DNA from: Armatimonadota bacterium
GTDB lineage: Bacteria > Armatimonadota > UBA5829 > DTJY01
Direction of reading: 5' to 3'
DNA: 64,000 bases
Assembly: GCA_029907255.1 (NCBI GenBank)
Contig: JARYMF010000001.1
Span: 1 to 64,000 of the forward strand
Made by a program: the position numbers and the translations under genes. Positions within the stretch are counted from its first letter, which is position 1; every line of letters starts with the position of its first letter. Below are positions 3,753-63,004 of this stretch, in pieces. The notes under the pieces were generated by a model. It did not search any database. It was not told the origin of the DNA and saw only the letters and a list, made by a program, of their open reading frames with translations.

Positions 3753-3778
3753 AGAAGCTTAATTCAGCTTCTTTATAT
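3753..3778. terminator. Small hairpin between convergent htrA and subtilase genes
   Basis: AGAAGCT (3753-3759) and AGCTTCT (3766-3772) form a perfect 7-bp stem with a TAATTC loop, followed on the plus strand by TTATAT. It overlaps the last codons of the minus-strand subtilase. It is probably a weak terminator for htrA, the only candidate in the 11-base gap. Confidence 0.45.
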
Positions 3779-5645
3779 CAGCCGGTTGTCTGGCACGAAT
3801 TACCGGGATTCTTATTTCAGTATACGCAGGAATTTCAATGGTGCTGATGCCGGTCACGCTTACAAAATCGTTCCTTTTAACGGAAGGCGTCCCGGCTGTG
3901 TAAACCTTCAGTCCTGTAAGGCCCGAACCATCATCTAGATTAGATCCATCGTCGATGTATATGAAATTTCGGCCGACGCTTGTAACTTTGCCCCACGTTT
4001 TTACCAATAGCCCTGTGTTCGGTAGTCCAATTCCGCCCGTTATGCCTCGATATCCCAGCTCCTGCCCTCCAACATCTTTATTTGAAATACCTAGTGGAGC
4101 TACTGTTATTCCATTACCTACTATTGTGACGCGTGGGTTGATAATAGCTAATTCGCCGTTTGGAAAATCCTCAGGCTTTGCTGTATAAAGCTCGCCAGCA
4201 ACTTCCACAAGGTCGCCTATTGACGTTGGTGTGGTTACCGATTGACCATAATAGACCATTATTCCTGCCGATCGGTCGGGTTCCTCGATATAGAATCTGT
4301 CCCCAAACTGTGCCGTTCCTGCCGTTACGGGCTTTGCAGATAGTTTGACAAACTCACCAATTTCGGCGTTCCAAAGCTCTCCGATGGTTGAATAAGTTTC
4401 AAACGCCTCACTGAGCGCCCGATATGCGTTAATTCTTCCCCAACCTGTATACCTATCCCAGCCTGTTGTGCCGATATCGTCGCAGGTTTGCTCAATTTGG
4501 TCGCGCACTTGTTGGTTTGTCCAGTCCGGGTGCGCTGACCATATGAGCGCGGCTAAGCCAGAAACGAATGGCGTTGAGGCTGAAGTTCCACTCAGTATCT
4601 CGTAGCCATCGAACAACCATGACCAATACCACCACGGTACACTGCTAATTATGAAGCTCCCTGGCGCCATGACATCGAGTGAATCTCCATAGTTGCTTCC
4701 ACCTTCGCCCCAGTCAGCAGCTGTGCAACGCATATCATATTCATTGGTTGCACCCACTGAGATTGTCGCTGGATAGTATGAGGGATAATGCGGGTCAGTT
4801 CGGTCATCAAGGCCGTCATTGCCACTTGCAGCGGTAAGTACACATCCGGCGGCCCACGCTTCATTCACTGCAGCTTCCAAAGCTGGCACGTGCAAATATG
4901 TGCCAATGCTCATATTGATAACTTTGGCGCCGTGCTCGACAGCCCAGATTATGCCTTCGGCTGCGTCTGCTTCTTCTCCATAACCGTCGGCGTTCAACAC
5001 CTTAATTGGCATAAGAAGGGCATTCCAATTAACTCCGGCTATTCCCGTGTAGTCATCTCCCCACGCGGCGGCAATTCCTGATACAAAAGTACCATGCATA
5101 TGGTCGTCTTCTGTATTTGACGAACCATCAATCGCATTGTAGCCAGCGACAATCTTACCTGCTAAGTCAGGGTGGCTGGAGTCTATGCCTGTGTCTATTA
5201 TTGCAATTATTATGCTATCTGAGCCAGTGTTTATATCCCATGCCTCAGGGGCATGTATATCGCATCGCCCATAGCTGTTATAAAGACCCCATTGCAGGAA
5301 GAAAAGCTCGTCGTTTGGAAACAAATCGGCGTGTATTATATGGTTCGGGCTAGCGAAGTTTACATGAGGGTTACGTGAAAACTCGGCTTGCGCTTCTTCG
5401 ATTGTTTTCCCTTTTGGCAGACGGAGGCGGTATACATTAATCCGCGGGATAACTTCTTTGACGGAAGCACCGTGTTCTTTAATTATCTTATCTGCTGGCG
5501 CACCTTTTCGAAATTGCACAAGTATTTCGCCAGGTACGTATTTCTCATGTCTTGGAAGCGAATGCTTCCATGGTAGTGCAAAGCAAAGGGTGGGCAGAAT
5601 CAAGAAGTAAATGGCTAATATTGAAGCGTATCTAATGCTTTTCAT
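3759..5645 (-). CDS. Secreted subtilisin-like serine protease (S8) with a C-terminal paired OB-like region
   Basis: 628 residues: a signal peptide (1-23), an I9-like propeptide (about 36-100), a subtilase catalytic domain (about 115-405) and a C-terminal region of roughly 210 residues. The triad is Asp151 (IIDTGIDSSHPDL), His184 (HGTFVSGIAAA) and Ser355 (GTSASTPFVSG), with the oxyanion Asn276 in AASGNDG. It should be an exported, propeptide-processed endopeptidase. The C-terminal region (residues about 415-628) is not part of the usual S8 fold; it resembles the tail of the large amidase at 54872-58543 (shared GLLxKTxG, FxYIxDGS, GISS/T and IPVxRxR blocks) and looks like two OB-type beta domains. 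A 7-base inverted repeat (5664-5686) lies in its leader. No close ribosome binding site is obvious beyond GGAAAG. Confidence 0.93.
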   Translation of the reverse strand: MKSIRYASILAIYFLILPTLCFALPWKHSLPRHEKYVPGEILVQFRKGAPADKIIKEHGASVKEVIPRINVYRLRLPKGKTIEEAQAEFSRNPHVNFASPNHIIHADLFPNDELFFLQWGLYNSYGRCDIHAPEAWDINTGSDSIIIAIIDTGIDSSHPDLAGKIVAGYNAIDGSSNTEDDHMHGTFVSGIAAAWGDDYTGIAGVNWNALLMPIKVLNADGYGEEADAAEGIIWAVEHGAKVINMSIGTYLHVPALEAAVNEAWAAGCVLTAASGNDGLDDRTDPHYPSYYPATISVGATNEYDMRCTAADWGEGGSNYGDSLDVMAPGSFIISSVPWWYWSWLFDGYEILSGTSASTPFVSGLAALIWSAHPDWTNQQVRDQIEQTCDDIGTTGWDRYTGWGRINAYRALSEAFETYSTIGELWNAEIGEFVKLSAKPVTAGTAQFGDRFYIEEPDRSAGIMVYYGQSVTTPTSIGDLVEVAGELYTAKPEDFPNGELAIINPRVTIVGNGITVAPLGISNKDVGGQELGYRGITGGIGLPNTGLLVKTWGKVTSVGRNFIYIDDGSNLDDGSGLTGLKVYTAGTPSVKRNDFVSVTGISTIEIPAYTEIRIPVIRARQPADIKKLN

Positions 5646-5663
5646 TTATATCGCACTACTTTC

Positions 5664-5686
5664 CAAGCGATTTTCTAATTCGCTTG
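5664..5686 (-). promoter_or_regulatory. Inverted repeat in the subtilase leader
   Basis: CAAGCGA (5664-5670) and TCGCTTG (5680-5686) form a perfect 7-base inverted repeat with a 9-base spacer, starting 19 bases upstream of the subtilase ATG and directly next to its weak GGAAAG ribosome binding site. It may be an operator or an mRNA hairpin affecting translation. Confidence 0.35.
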
Positions 5687-5815
5687 AATGTCGGTGTACG
5701 AGGGGTTGTTAGTGATTACTGGCTTTCATTTTTGAAGACTTTGCATTTCTACTCTATCACCGACAGCTCGAATTGTCAACTAACTGCTCACAAACTGGCA
5801 ATTTTACTAGCTTGC

Positions 5816-5844
5816 TTGACACTTTTGCCCATGGTTGTTAGAAT
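5816..5844 (+). promoter_or_regulatory. Strong sigma70-type promoter for a short RNA or leader
   Basis: TTGACA (5816-5821), a 17-base spacer and TAGAAT (5839-5844). The expected transcription start is about 5850, exactly where the structured RNA candidate begins. The region 5687-5815 upstream shows nothing I can name. Confidence 0.7.
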
Positions 5845-5849
5845 AATAG

Positions 5850-5996
5850 CGATCTCCTATCTCGGTTATATAAAATGCACTTGGTATAAAAGCGATAGCA
5901 GGCAATGCAATTTACCTGCTATCGCCCTGGAGAGAGGTGATCGTATAGCGTAGGGTATTAGACACGCAAGCAATTCGGACGCTATACTATTTTTTT
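5850..5996 (+). ncRNA. Candidate structured small RNA or riboswitch-like leader, about 147 nt
   Basis: From the predicted start of the promoter at 5816-5844 the RNA can fold into a closing helix P1 (CGATC at 5850-5854 with GATCG at 5939-5943, extended by CCT/AGG and CTC/GAG pairs across a small bulge) that encloses a perfect 11-bp hairpin P2 (GCGATAGCAGG at 5892-5902 with CCTGCTATCGC at 5915-5925). It ends in a long-looped terminator (5943-5996). It does not match the SRP, tmRNA, RNase P or 6S conserved motifs as far as I can recall them. It could be an independent sRNA, or an aptamer plus terminator controlling the small gene at 6103. Structure is read by eye; function unknown. Confidence 0.5.
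5943..5996 (+). terminator. Rho-independent terminator with long loop
   Basis: GTATAGCGT (5943-5951) and ACGCTATAC (5979-5987) are a perfect 9-bp stem around a 27-base loop, followed by TAT and a run of seven T. It ends the RNA that starts near 5850, or acts as the expression platform for the gene at 6103. The 106 bases after it, up to the ATG, show no other feature. Confidence 0.65.
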
Positions 5997-6102: not shown

Positions 6103-6357
6103 ATGGACCTGGCAGCTATAGAATCAAGACTAATGTCAGGCGAGGAATTGAAGATCAAGTATAAATATCCTCGGCAATTGGGTCCTGGGGAAAAGGGTTC
6201 GGCTTATGGGGTACGCAGCGACAAATTGGTTGATGTTTCTACGGAACTACGGCGATTTTATGTGATTTTTCGCGGCCAGACGCCAATCTGGATTGAAGAG
6301 AATGAAGTAATAGAAATCACCCCTGATGATGGTGTATATCAGGAGTTCGAGGAATAG
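6103..6357 (+). CDS. Uncharacterised small protein, 84 residues
   Basis: I do not recognise a family. The product is a soluble, charged, single-domain protein with alternating beta-like stretches (for example LRRFYVIFRGQTPIWIEEN) and an acidic C-terminus; it has no signal peptide, membrane segment or metal motif. An in-frame ATG at 6091 exists, but ATG 6103 is preferred because GGATGGTGA lies 6-8 bases upstream, whereas 6091 has no ribosome binding site. It follows the promoter-hairpin-terminator element at 5816-5996 and may be controlled by it. It is convergent with the next gene. Confidence 0.6.
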   Translation: MDLAAIESRLMSGEELKIKYKYPRQLGPGEKGSAYGVRSDKLVDVSTELRRFYVIFRGQTPIWIEENEVIEITPDDGVYQEFEE

Positions 6358-6391: not shown

Positions 6392-7192
6392 TTACGGCAA
6401 TTCAGCATACTCTTGTGCGGCAATTACAAAGGCTTTGAATAGACGTTTACATGGCTTATAGATGTATTCATCTGATGCTTTCTCTGGATGCCATTGGACC
6501 GCTATTATCCAGGGATGGTTCAATCCCTCAAGTCCTTCGATAAGTCCATCTGGTGCGAACGCAACGGGCACAAGCCTTGGCGATTTTTCCTTTGCGGACA
6601 CTCCTTGATGATGGCGGCTGTTTACTTTCTTGATATCTGGCCCGAGAATTTCATATAAGCGACTATCCTCGCGAATTTGTATGTCGTGTGAGCTACTTGA
6701 ACCCGATTTATGCTCTGGCTCATCTTCTTTAGTATATGATTTATGCCTTAGGCCAGTGCGAACATCTTTCACTAAACTGCCACCAAGTGCGACATTCAAA
6801 ACCTGAAAGCCGCGGCATATCCCAAGAATAGGCATGCCCTTTAAGTAGGCCGCACGAATAAGCGGAAGTTCAAGCGCATCGCGCTCGGGGTCGCAGTCCA
6901 TTTTATATTTTGCAATCAATTCCTCCGTTGAGAGTTTTTCATCCCCTGGCTCGGTCCGCGAATTATAATTATCGGGGTGAACGTCCCGACCGCCACTCAG
7001 GAGGAGACCGTCAATTTGGAGCAGAGATTCATGGAGCTCTTGGGGGTCGAGATATGGAGAGGGACAGAGAAATATCGGCGCTCCTCCCGCATCTCGAATA
7101 GCATCAGCGTAGGGTTGGTAATCCTTAAGCTGGTCGTCTGGCGGTGAATTTTTGGCTGTCCCAGTTGTAATTCCGATTACAGGTTTTTTCAT
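6392..7192 (-). CDS. Class I glutamine amidotransferase-like hydrolase (peptidase C26, PuuD-like)
   Basis: 266 residues, the size of gamma-glutamyl-gamma-aminobutyrate hydrolases. The nucleophile is Cys126 in GICRGFQVLNVALGG, with His235 and Glu237 in QWHPE; the LLLSGGRDV oxyanion region is also present. Members remove the gamma-glutamyl group from small amines (PuuD in putrescine breakdown), but no polyamine genes are nearby, so the substrate is open. A good promoter, TTGACA-N18-TATTCT on the minus strand (7216-7245), lies just upstream. Monocistronic by position. Confidence 0.88.
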   Translation of the reverse strand: MKKPVIGITTGTAKNSPPDDQLKDYQPYADAIRDAGGAPIFLCPSPYLDPQELHESLLQIDGLLLSGGRDVHPDNYNSRTEPGDEKLSTEELIAKYKMDCDPERDALELPLIRAAYLKGMPILGICRGFQVLNVALGGSLVKDVRTGLRHKSYTKEDEPEHKSGSSSSHDIQIREDSRLYEILGPDIKKVNSRHHQGVSAKEKSPRLVPVAFAPDGLIEGLEGLNHPWIIAVQWHPEKASDEYIYKPCKRLFKAFVIAAQEYAELP

Positions 7193-7933: not shown

Positions 7934-7955
7934 CTTACCAATCTAACTGGTTATA

Positions 7956-8043
7956 AATAAAACAGCTGGACCATCCACGGTGATTTATGTTCCGCTTGAA
8001 AGCGGAATGTGTATTTTGCCGTGGATGGTCCAGCTGTTTTATT
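7956..8043. repeat. 88-base nested perfect palindrome, probable bidirectional terminator
   Basis: Two perfectly complementary 25-base arms, 7956-7980 and 8019-8043 (core CAGCTGGACCATCCACGG), enclose a second perfect palindrome TTCCGCTT/AAGCGGAA (7990-8007). Each arm begins AATAAAA and so ends in TTTTATT in the transcript, on both strands, as expected for a bidirectional intrinsic terminator between convergent genes. The right arm includes the TAA of the minus-strand GNAT. It is far longer than a normal terminator stem and may be a repeat-derived element. Confidence 0.85.
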
Positions 8044-60640: not shown

Positions 60641-60669
60641 TTGACAAATTAATTGTTTCTGCCTATAAT
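60641..60669 (+). promoter_or_regulatory. Perfect-consensus promoter
   Basis: TTGACA (60641-60646), 17 bases, TATAAT (60664-60669): both hexamers match the sigma70 consensus exactly. The transcript leader to the GTG at 60770 is about 95 bases and A/T-rich. Strong constitutive expression of the secreted protein downstream is expected. Confidence 0.85.
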
Positions 60670-60769: not shown

Positions 60770-63004
60770 GTGCGGTCAAAACTTTGTCTAGTTTCATTTC
60801 TTTTCCTAATCGCTAGTATTGGTATGCCCTTAAATGCTACCGAGGGCGTTCCAAATCAAATAAGCTATCAGGGAAAGCTAGTAAGTCCGCTAGGTGTCCC
60901 TGTTCCTGATGGAACTTACCAAGTGCAATTTAAACTTTATACCTCCGAAGATGGTACTACTCCCGTTTGGACATCCGCTACTTCTAACGTCAATACAACC
61001 GGCGGCTTTTTTACCACAAGAATTGATGATGTGCCGATAGAGGTATTTTCGAATCCAGATGTGTGGCTAGAGGTAATTATTGAGGGAAAGGCACTCTTAC
61101 CACGGGTTAAACTTAGCTCAGTGCCATACGCCATTCGTTCTGCCGAGATTGCTCTGCCTTTTTCTGGAGTTGCCAATAGTGATAAGCCTGCGTTTACGGT
61201 GACAAACACAGGAGCAGGCGGAGCTATCAAGGCAGTGGCGGCAGGCGATGCAATTGCAGGCGAATTTGTTGGAAGGGTGCAAATAAGCAAGAATACAGAG
61301 GGGTCGCCAGCGTTTGAAGTTGATGGCGTTGCTACCTTTGGCAAACTTGTTACATTTAACGAAGATGTTACTGTTGCGCCAGGCAAGAAAGTAGATGGTG
61401 TTGATATTTCAGAGCATGACCACTCTGGACCTGGTCAGGGAGGTCTTTTGCGTTGGGATAAGGTTGGCAATCAGCGTCGCCTTCGCGTTGAAAGATATTT
61501 CACAGTTGATGCCATAGGTGAGACCGTTGAGTGGACTCACATTACAAATGGTGTTATTGGTTTTCTATTTGAGACAGGTTATGGTTCAACCTGGGCAAAT
61601 AGTCATAACCAAGTAACAATCCGTCGCATTCCAGTTATCGCTCTCGGTTTGGACTATGCACACCCGGATAACTCTCAGGCTAATTCTCCTTTTACGCCAT
61701 ATCATGGAAGATATGGATCAAGATGTTGGTCATGTCTTACGGAATTAGGCTTTAGGAATGGGAATGGTATAGAAATTGACCCTGACTCGCTTTCACCTTT
61801 GGATGATAAGCTAGTTCTCTATTTCAGCCGGTGGGTTGGCTGTGGCGGGGCTGATGGCACCCAGAATGATGCCCAGTTTGTTTGTAGTGAAAATAAGACT
61901 GCAGCCATTTACCTTGCCGACTCAGAAGGACATCCAATTTTTCGAAATGATAGCGGCGTTAATGAAAATATTAGCGAGGCATGTGATCTACGACCGCTTG
62001 GCCAGAGGGGGCTCGTAGGCAAAGTAATTCAATATGATGGTCCGAAAGAGCAAAATGCTATTCGGGGTGATTCTCTGCGGTTGTATTTCTATATTAAGGG
62101 ACCTGTTACCGGCTCGCCAGTGCTTAGTGTATGGGTTTTTCCTTCGTGCAGGTACAACAAATACCCAGGATATCATTTTGCCAGATACCGCCGCTCAGAT
62201 AGATTAGTGTATACCCATCAAGGTCCGCGTTTGGGTGATGGTCCTAGTTTTCAGGGTGATGCATGGAATTATATTGACCTGGATTCAATAGTTTTAACCC
62301 CAGGGACAAACTTGATAGTACTAGACGGAAGCTTAATGTCTAATAGTAGCAAGTTTTCCATAGGTGTTGATACTTCCGTTAGAACCACTCAGCGTAATAA
62401 AGCTTATTTACTATATCAAAGCTGTGCCAACTATTGGCGGGTGATACGTACAAAGTACACTTTCTATCGAGATTACGATAAGATAGACATGGAGCCATCT
62501 GTTCCTCCGGATTATGCAGTTTGTGGAAATGGGCCAGCCGCATTGGCGTCGTTTGAATACAACTTCGGAATGATCAAAAACTTTTTCCGTGAAATGCCAT
62601 TTGAGTATTCGCCTTGTGGATCAAATAACGAGTTTCCACGTCTATCATATAAACACTATGCTCCCAACAGGGTAAACTACCTGGGAACAGAGTGGATACC
62701 CACAGTTCTACCTTATAATTTTCCGTTGCTTGTTTGGGATGAAAACGACCAAGCTCACATAGATTTCTATAGGCAGGAGGATCCAACGAAAGCTTTCAAA
62801 ATAACGTTACAACGCAATGGTTCAACTAAACCCATTCAACTGATGGTAGGAAGATTCGGCGACCCGCCGTATTGGTATAGGGACAATGATATGCCTCAAT
62901 ATGATTTCAATGACTGGATTTTTCATGTATGCGGGTCAGTTCGAGCAGGCGAGCCAATGCCAATTATAACACTTGATGTCTCCAGCTTGATAGGCAGTTT
63001 CTAG
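60770..63004 (+). CDS. Large secreted protein of unknown function, tail-fibre-like N-terminal domain
   Basis: 744 residues. Signal peptide (1-24), then NQISYQGKLVSPLGVPVPDG followed by GTYQVQFKLYTSEDGTTPVW, a beta-rich domain seen at the start of many bacterial surface and fibre proteins (about 27-125), and a short linker with a repeat-like VDGVDISEHDHSGPGQGG. The C-terminal 500 residues are not recognised: Trp, Tyr and Cys-rich, without enzyme motifs I can name. GTG start with AAAGGAG. Its stop is 3 bases from cysK, which is convergent. Confidence 0.75.
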   Translation: MRSKLCLVSFLFLIASIGMPLNATEGVPNQISYQGKLVSPLGVPVPDGTYQVQFKLYTSEDGTTPVWTSATSNVNTTGGFFTTRIDDVPIEVFSNPDVWLEVIIEGKALLPRVKLSSVPYAIRSAEIALPFSGVANSDKPAFTVTNTGAGGAIKAVAAGDAIAGEFVGRVQISKNTEGSPAFEVDGVATFGKLVTFNEDVTVAPGKKVDGVDISEHDHSGPGQGGLLRWDKVGNQRRLRVERYFTVDAIGETVEWTHITNGVIGFLFETGYGSTWANSHNQVTIRRIPVIALGLDYAHPDNSQANSPFTPYHGRYGSRCWSCLTELGFRNGNGIEIDPDSLSPLDDKLVLYFSRWVGCGGADGTQNDAQFVCSENKTAAIYLADSEGHPIFRNDSGVNENISEACDLRPLGQRGLVGKVIQYDGPKEQNAIRGDSLRLYFYIKGPVTGSPVLSVWVFPSCRYNKYPGYHFARYRRSDRLVYTHQGPRLGDGPSFQGDAWNYIDLDSIVLTPGTNLIVLDGSLMSNSSKFSIGVDTSVRTTQRNKAYLLYQSCANYWRVIRTKYTFYRDYDKIDMEPSVPPDYAVCGNGPAALASFEYNFGMIKNFFREMPFEYSPCGSNNEFPRLSYKHYAPNRVNYLGTEWIPTVLPYNFPLLVWDENDQAHIDFYRQEDPTKAFKITLQRNGSTKPIQLMVGRFGDPPYWYRDNDMPQYDFNDWIFHVCGSVRAGEPMPIITLDVSSLIGSF

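Follow-up and report, generated by a model that had tools for sequence, protein, structure and literature searches.

An unclassified structured RNA of narrow distribution upstream of an 84-residue protein gene in Armatimonadota

Introduction

Terminated structured 5' leaders and transcription attenuators are arranged as a promoter, a structured leader, an intrinsic terminator and a gene, all on one strand. The unit described here has the same order of promoter, leader, terminator and gene, but neither an antiterminator nor a leader peptide was found in it, and its counterpart in a sister genus has no U-tract. Hfq-dependent sRNAs are a second group that comes close, since the unit likewise has its own promoter and a Rho-independent terminator with seven U in a genome that encodes a canonical Hfq; it differs in that the U-tract is absent from the sister genus. 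With T-box leaders (RF00230) the unit has in common that a leader is combined with a terminator, but there is no Rfam match to them even at E<=10. With 6S RNA (RF00013) it shares a closing stem, a large one-sided internal loop and a terminal stem, whereas the two sides of the loop in the unit are very unequal (28 and 4 nt). Our analysis indicates that the unit is a real, narrowly distributed and unclassified structured RNA. The Armatimonadota thereby gain a structured RNA not catalogued before, tied to an unnamed class-wide protein family. If both are functionally linked, this RNA-protein pair would be a simple test case for small-gene regulation in such lineages; if they are not, the RNA would be an ordinary leader or sRNA of narrow distribution.

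Genomic setting and architecture of the unit

The window, i.e., the whole stretch of DNA analyzed, corresponds to the initial 64 kb of contig C1; the genome totals 3.23 Mb in 33 contigs. In the following, this genome is designated G000, its congener G001, and the member of a second genus within the family G003. The unit is flanked on one side by a minus-strand subtilase gene (3759-5645) and on the other by an open reading frame (ORF) of 84 amino acids on the plus strand, the latter being convergent with a peptidase-C26-type gene on the minus strand (6392-7192). The features are as follows:

5816..5844, plus strand: sigma-70-type promoter TTGACA-N17-TAGAAT with TG ahead of the -10 element, 11 of 12 matches; same hexamers and spacing 5' of the G003 ortholog
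5850..5854, plus strand: 5' strand of outer P1, CGATC, at or adjoining the predicted transcript start; from the fold, unchanged in G001, no counterpart among the transcribed positions of G003
5856..5863, plus strand: 5' strand of inner P1, CCTATCTC, 7 of 8 pairs with GAGAGAGG (5930-5937)
5866..5889, plus strand: P2, possible weak hairpin TTATAT/GTATAA; pair probability about 0.5 in G000 and 0.7-0.9 in G001, not seen in G003
5892..5925, plus strand: P3, perfect 11-bp hairpin of GCGATAGCAGG (5892-5902) with CCTGCTATCGC (5915-5925); arms aligned in G003
5929..5949, plus strand: 21-nt motif GGAGAGAGGTNAYCGYATAGC, covering the 3' strand of inner P1, the junction and the 5' arm of the terminator; no other part is as well conserved between genera
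5944..5996, plus strand: intrinsic terminator (P4) with a stem of 8-9 bp (TATAGCGT, 5944-5951, with ACGCTATA, 5979-5986), a loop of 27 nt and seven T at 5990-5996
6103..6357, plus strand: gene of the 84-aa protein, a class-wide Armatimonadota family modeled as an alpha plus five-strand small barrel; SD-like GGTGA upstream

The initial annotation had proposed a discrete promoter-RNA-terminator unit, with a strong promoter, a closing helix at the predicted start around a perfect 11-bp hairpin, a separate terminator with seven T and an 84-residue protein downstream. All of these parts were found, and the discrete unit is supported. The promoter is one of four sites in the 64 kb that score at least 11/12, and none of its 34 bases is changed in G001. 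The terminator had been missed by a stock terminator scan because of its 27-nt loop; it ends 106 nt 5' of the start codon of the 84-aa gene and is overlapped by a promoter-like site with 10 of 12 matches (5959-5988). An ORF of 89 amino acids (5684-5953) also overlaps the unit; it contains the whole promoter as well as the position of a 5-nt indel in the congener. Elsewhere in the window, a perfect consensus promoter TTGACA-N17-TATAAT is found at 60641-60669; the ORF behind it, which begins near 60770, apparently encodes a signal peptide.

Fold of the RNA

The outer closing helix is formed by CGATC (5850-5854) with GATCG (5939-5943), so that the P1/P3 fold spans 5850-5943 (~95 nt). The minimum free energy is lower than that of 200 of 200 dinucleotide shuffles, with z=-3.0 for the whole unit and z=-4.9 for P1-P3. 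However, such a fold energy is not unique, since among 1598 windows of equal length across the 64 kb, 11 (~0.7%) do as well against shuffles. Fold energy by itself would thus be too little to establish the unit, and the case for it rests on promoter, fold and comparison together.

The terminator forms together with P1-P3, with pair probabilities of 0.96-1.0, and neither in folds of the growing transcript (unconstrained) nor in the pair probabilities was an antiterminator or a mutually exclusive structure found. The idea of an aptamer-terminator, which had been put forward for this locus, is therefore not upheld. A translation switch, in which the P1 5' strand pairs with the Shine-Dalgarno sequence of the gene, was hinted at by one 250-nt fold, but it had a probability of 0.00 in all three full leaders and was rejected.

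Comparison within the genus and across genera

A search for homologous regions in relatives, as had been suggested for this locus, identified such regions in G001 and G003, with the pairing of inner P1 and P4 kept. Three homologs are thus known, two of them 95% alike, as G001 carries the unit in the same place as G000 and with that identity. When the columns of a G000-G001 comparison are sorted by the P1/P2/P3/terminator structure, changes are found in 0 of 78 that are paired and in 10 of 70 that are unpaired (Fisher p=4e-4). Divergence between the two genomes is 6.4% in P1-P3 and 5.9% in the upstream spacer, which, along with the changes avoiding pairs, indicates that the pairing and not the whole sequence is held constant.

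In G003, the ortholog of the 84-aa gene is preceded by TTGACA-N17-TAGAAT followed by GGAGAGAGGTAACCGCATAGC, compared to GGAGAGAGGTGATCGTATAGC in G000, and this promoter with identical hexamers is the only one found in a scan of 720 bp. The local similarity between the G000 and G003 leaders is 37, whereas the shuffled null has a mean of 20.6 and a maximum of 35 (500 shuffles); the leaders of 17 other 84-aa homologs reach 17-28. Inner P1 is in register in G003, where CCTCTGTC makes 7 of 8 pairs with GAGAGAGG as CCTATCTC does, with probabilities of about 0.8-1.0 overall and of 0.89-1.0 in G003, and folding the G003 sequence by itself also yields both inner P1 and P4. The P4 counterpart there is GCATAG/CTATGC, with one double change and a probability of ~0.89 for the outer pairs, but no U-tract follows it. 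The closing helix P1, which had been stressed in the initial annotation, stands in its inner part across genera, but not in its outermost CGATC/GATCG pairs, which have no counterpart in the transcribed part of G003. Compensatory changes in the helices, asked for at the same time, appear as two double-sided changes in the aligned arms of P3. However, 11% of shuffles reach as many, and the minimum-energy fold of G003 lacks the aligned P3, a different pairing being preferred by 8.8 kcal/mol. As judged from the alignment, covariation across genera in the 11-bp hairpin is therefore suggestive only.

Distribution and known RNA classes

The RNA is single-copy in its genome, and GGAGAGAGGTNAYCGYATAGC occurs without mismatch in three genomes only among 29 relatives, once in each of them. 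A core model derived from these three copies matches all of them at E ~1e-18 or better, and no further copies were found in 291 genomes of the phylum: the next match has E=6e-5, and the best extra matches that were inspected appear to be unrelated sequence. An origin from a mobile element or phage was rejected, as no similar DNA is present in plasmids or phages, the motif is absent from IMG/VR viral contigs and the unit is single-copy. In G004, whose leader has a similarity of 21 and lies inside the null, a homologous RNA was likewise rejected, and G002 contains neither the 84-aa gene nor the RNA.

That the RNA matches no known class, as had been stated for this locus, is borne out by Rfam 15: searches of the window, G003 and other leaders gave no family over the gathering threshold and no credible match in the permissive mode (E<=10). 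This applies to T-boxes and known riboswitches as well as to 6S RNA, for which the unit gave no match at gathering threshold or E<=10, and the real 6S RNA of the genome is located at G000:C4:209412-209607 (88.5 bits). The stretch GGTAACCGC in G003 is what we take to be faintly like part of a T-box sequence, a likeness that is absent from the window's own copy. A literature search gave nothing specific to the RNA at 5850-5996.

The downstream 84-aa protein

The 84-residue protein noted downstream in the initial annotation corresponds to the ORF 6103-6357 and carries no family name, as searches of Pfam and NCBIfam with the protein of the window gave no match. Homologs are present in 20 of 61 genomes searched. 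An AF2 model (pLDDT 89.5) predicts an N-terminal helix followed by five strands (H-E-E-E-E-E), and its top structural neighbors are Hfq chains (Z ~6, 2.3 A over 58 residues), with Tudor domains being nearly equal. An assignment as Hfq homolog by sequence was rejected (hhalign probability 0.6%), and a normal Hfq is encoded elsewhere in the genome. As far as can be taken from the model, the protein is a small beta-barrel that is Hfq/Sm-like in topology only. RNA binding by it would be possible.

In nine leaders of 84-aa orthologs from other families of the class (L011, L012, L014-L018, L020, L021) a different motif is shared, approximately AGGAAGGATAT...TATAAC, which in several of them stands after a TATCAT-like -10 element, and some could be read as very short leader ORFs. 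In another family, two leaders on the reverse strand (L007, L008) have two consecutive strong hairpins 5' of the 84-aa ortholog, with a sequence unrelated to that of the RNA in the window.

Possible function as a leader of the 84-aa gene

All three copies of the RNA are located directly 5' of the 84-aa gene and on the same strand, whereas the upstream gene differs between genera, being the opposite-strand subtilase in G000 and a same-strand gene in G003. Position and synteny agree in three genera. Moreover, in G004, where the RNA is missing, a promoter with 11 of 12 matches is located 158 nt 5' of the 84-aa ortholog with no terminator between them, and this suggests that the promoter belongs to the 84-aa gene. 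Since the RNA is always found 5' of one gene while the upstream gene changes, since G002 lacks both, and in view of the G004 promoter, we favor the reading that the unit serves the 84-aa gene as a structured 5' leader specific to this family and ending in a terminator in one genus, to which we give an even chance of being right, over that of an independent RNA. Transcription would start at about 5850, and the first ~95 nt are predicted from folding and comparison to form P1 as a closed stem that carries a hairpin at its end, directly followed by the terminator. In the genus of the window most transcripts would then end near 5996 as an RNA of ~147 nt, and a minority that reads through would be the mRNA of the 84-aa protein, so that the leader probably adjusts the amount of this protein that is made. 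The likeliest candidate contact site for a trans factor setting the fraction of read-through would be GGAGAGAGGTNAYCGYATAGC. In the sister genus the leader appears to be kept, but control there would not rest on this intrinsic terminator, because the U-tract is gone. Several points speak against such a leader. The missing antiterminator or exclusive structure is unusual for an attenuator, the terminator lies well before the start codon, the site at 5959-5988 could drive the 84-aa gene separately, and shared synteny alone could be the cause of the linkage between RNA and gene.

The strongest competitor, which we regard as a serious though clearly less probable possibility, is a free-standing, trans-acting sRNA of ~147 nt, possibly bound by Hfq via its U-rich 3' end, with the 84-aa gene having its own promoter near 5959-5988. 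The strong promoter and terminator in the genus of the window are consistent with this, as are the stability of P1-P3 and terminator without an alternative fold, the canonical Hfq of the genome and the promoter-like site overlapping the terminator, which could serve the 84-aa gene. However, G003 has no U-tract, no unpaired seed is conserved between the genera, the conserved motif being mostly helical, and every copy of the RNA that was found adjoins the 84-aa gene.

That promoter and terminator merely enclose ordinary hairpins and the fold is functionless appears improbable. Although a number of same-size windows fold equally well compared to shuffles and P1-P3 has diverged no less than the upstream spacer, the changes avoid paired columns, a second genus retains the promoter, the 21-nt motif and inner P1, and the similarity of the G000 and G003 leaders exceeds every shuffle. 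A metabolite-sensing riboswitch of aptamer plus terminator would fit the three-way-junction-like shape with a terminator directly after it and a gene downstream, but is decidedly unlikely given that Rfam has no match, that P1 and terminator are compatible and not exclusive, that P2 is weak and absent in G003 while the junction sequences vary even inside the genus, and that the RNA is limited to one family and one gene. More far-fetched still is a reading by which the 84-aa protein would be a new Sm-like RNA-binding protein of the Armatimonadota that binds GGAGAGAGGTNAYCGYATAGC in its own leader and thereby controls its own termination or read-through, RNA and protein forming an autoregulated pair.

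Further observations in the window

The subtilase next to the unit carries a C-terminal segment of ~200 residues (encoded by 3759-4360) that is also present in dozens of large proteins other than the subtilase, spread over several genomes of the class (G000 to G006). On the other side of the unit, a very strong inverted repeat, AAACAGCTGGACCATCCACGG ... CCGTGGATGGTCCAGCTGTTT, is located at 7953-8043 between a gene for a GNAT acetyltransferase and its convergent neighbor (fold z ~-9). It has no second copy in either genome, is 93% alike in the congener, and is probably a bidirectional terminator.
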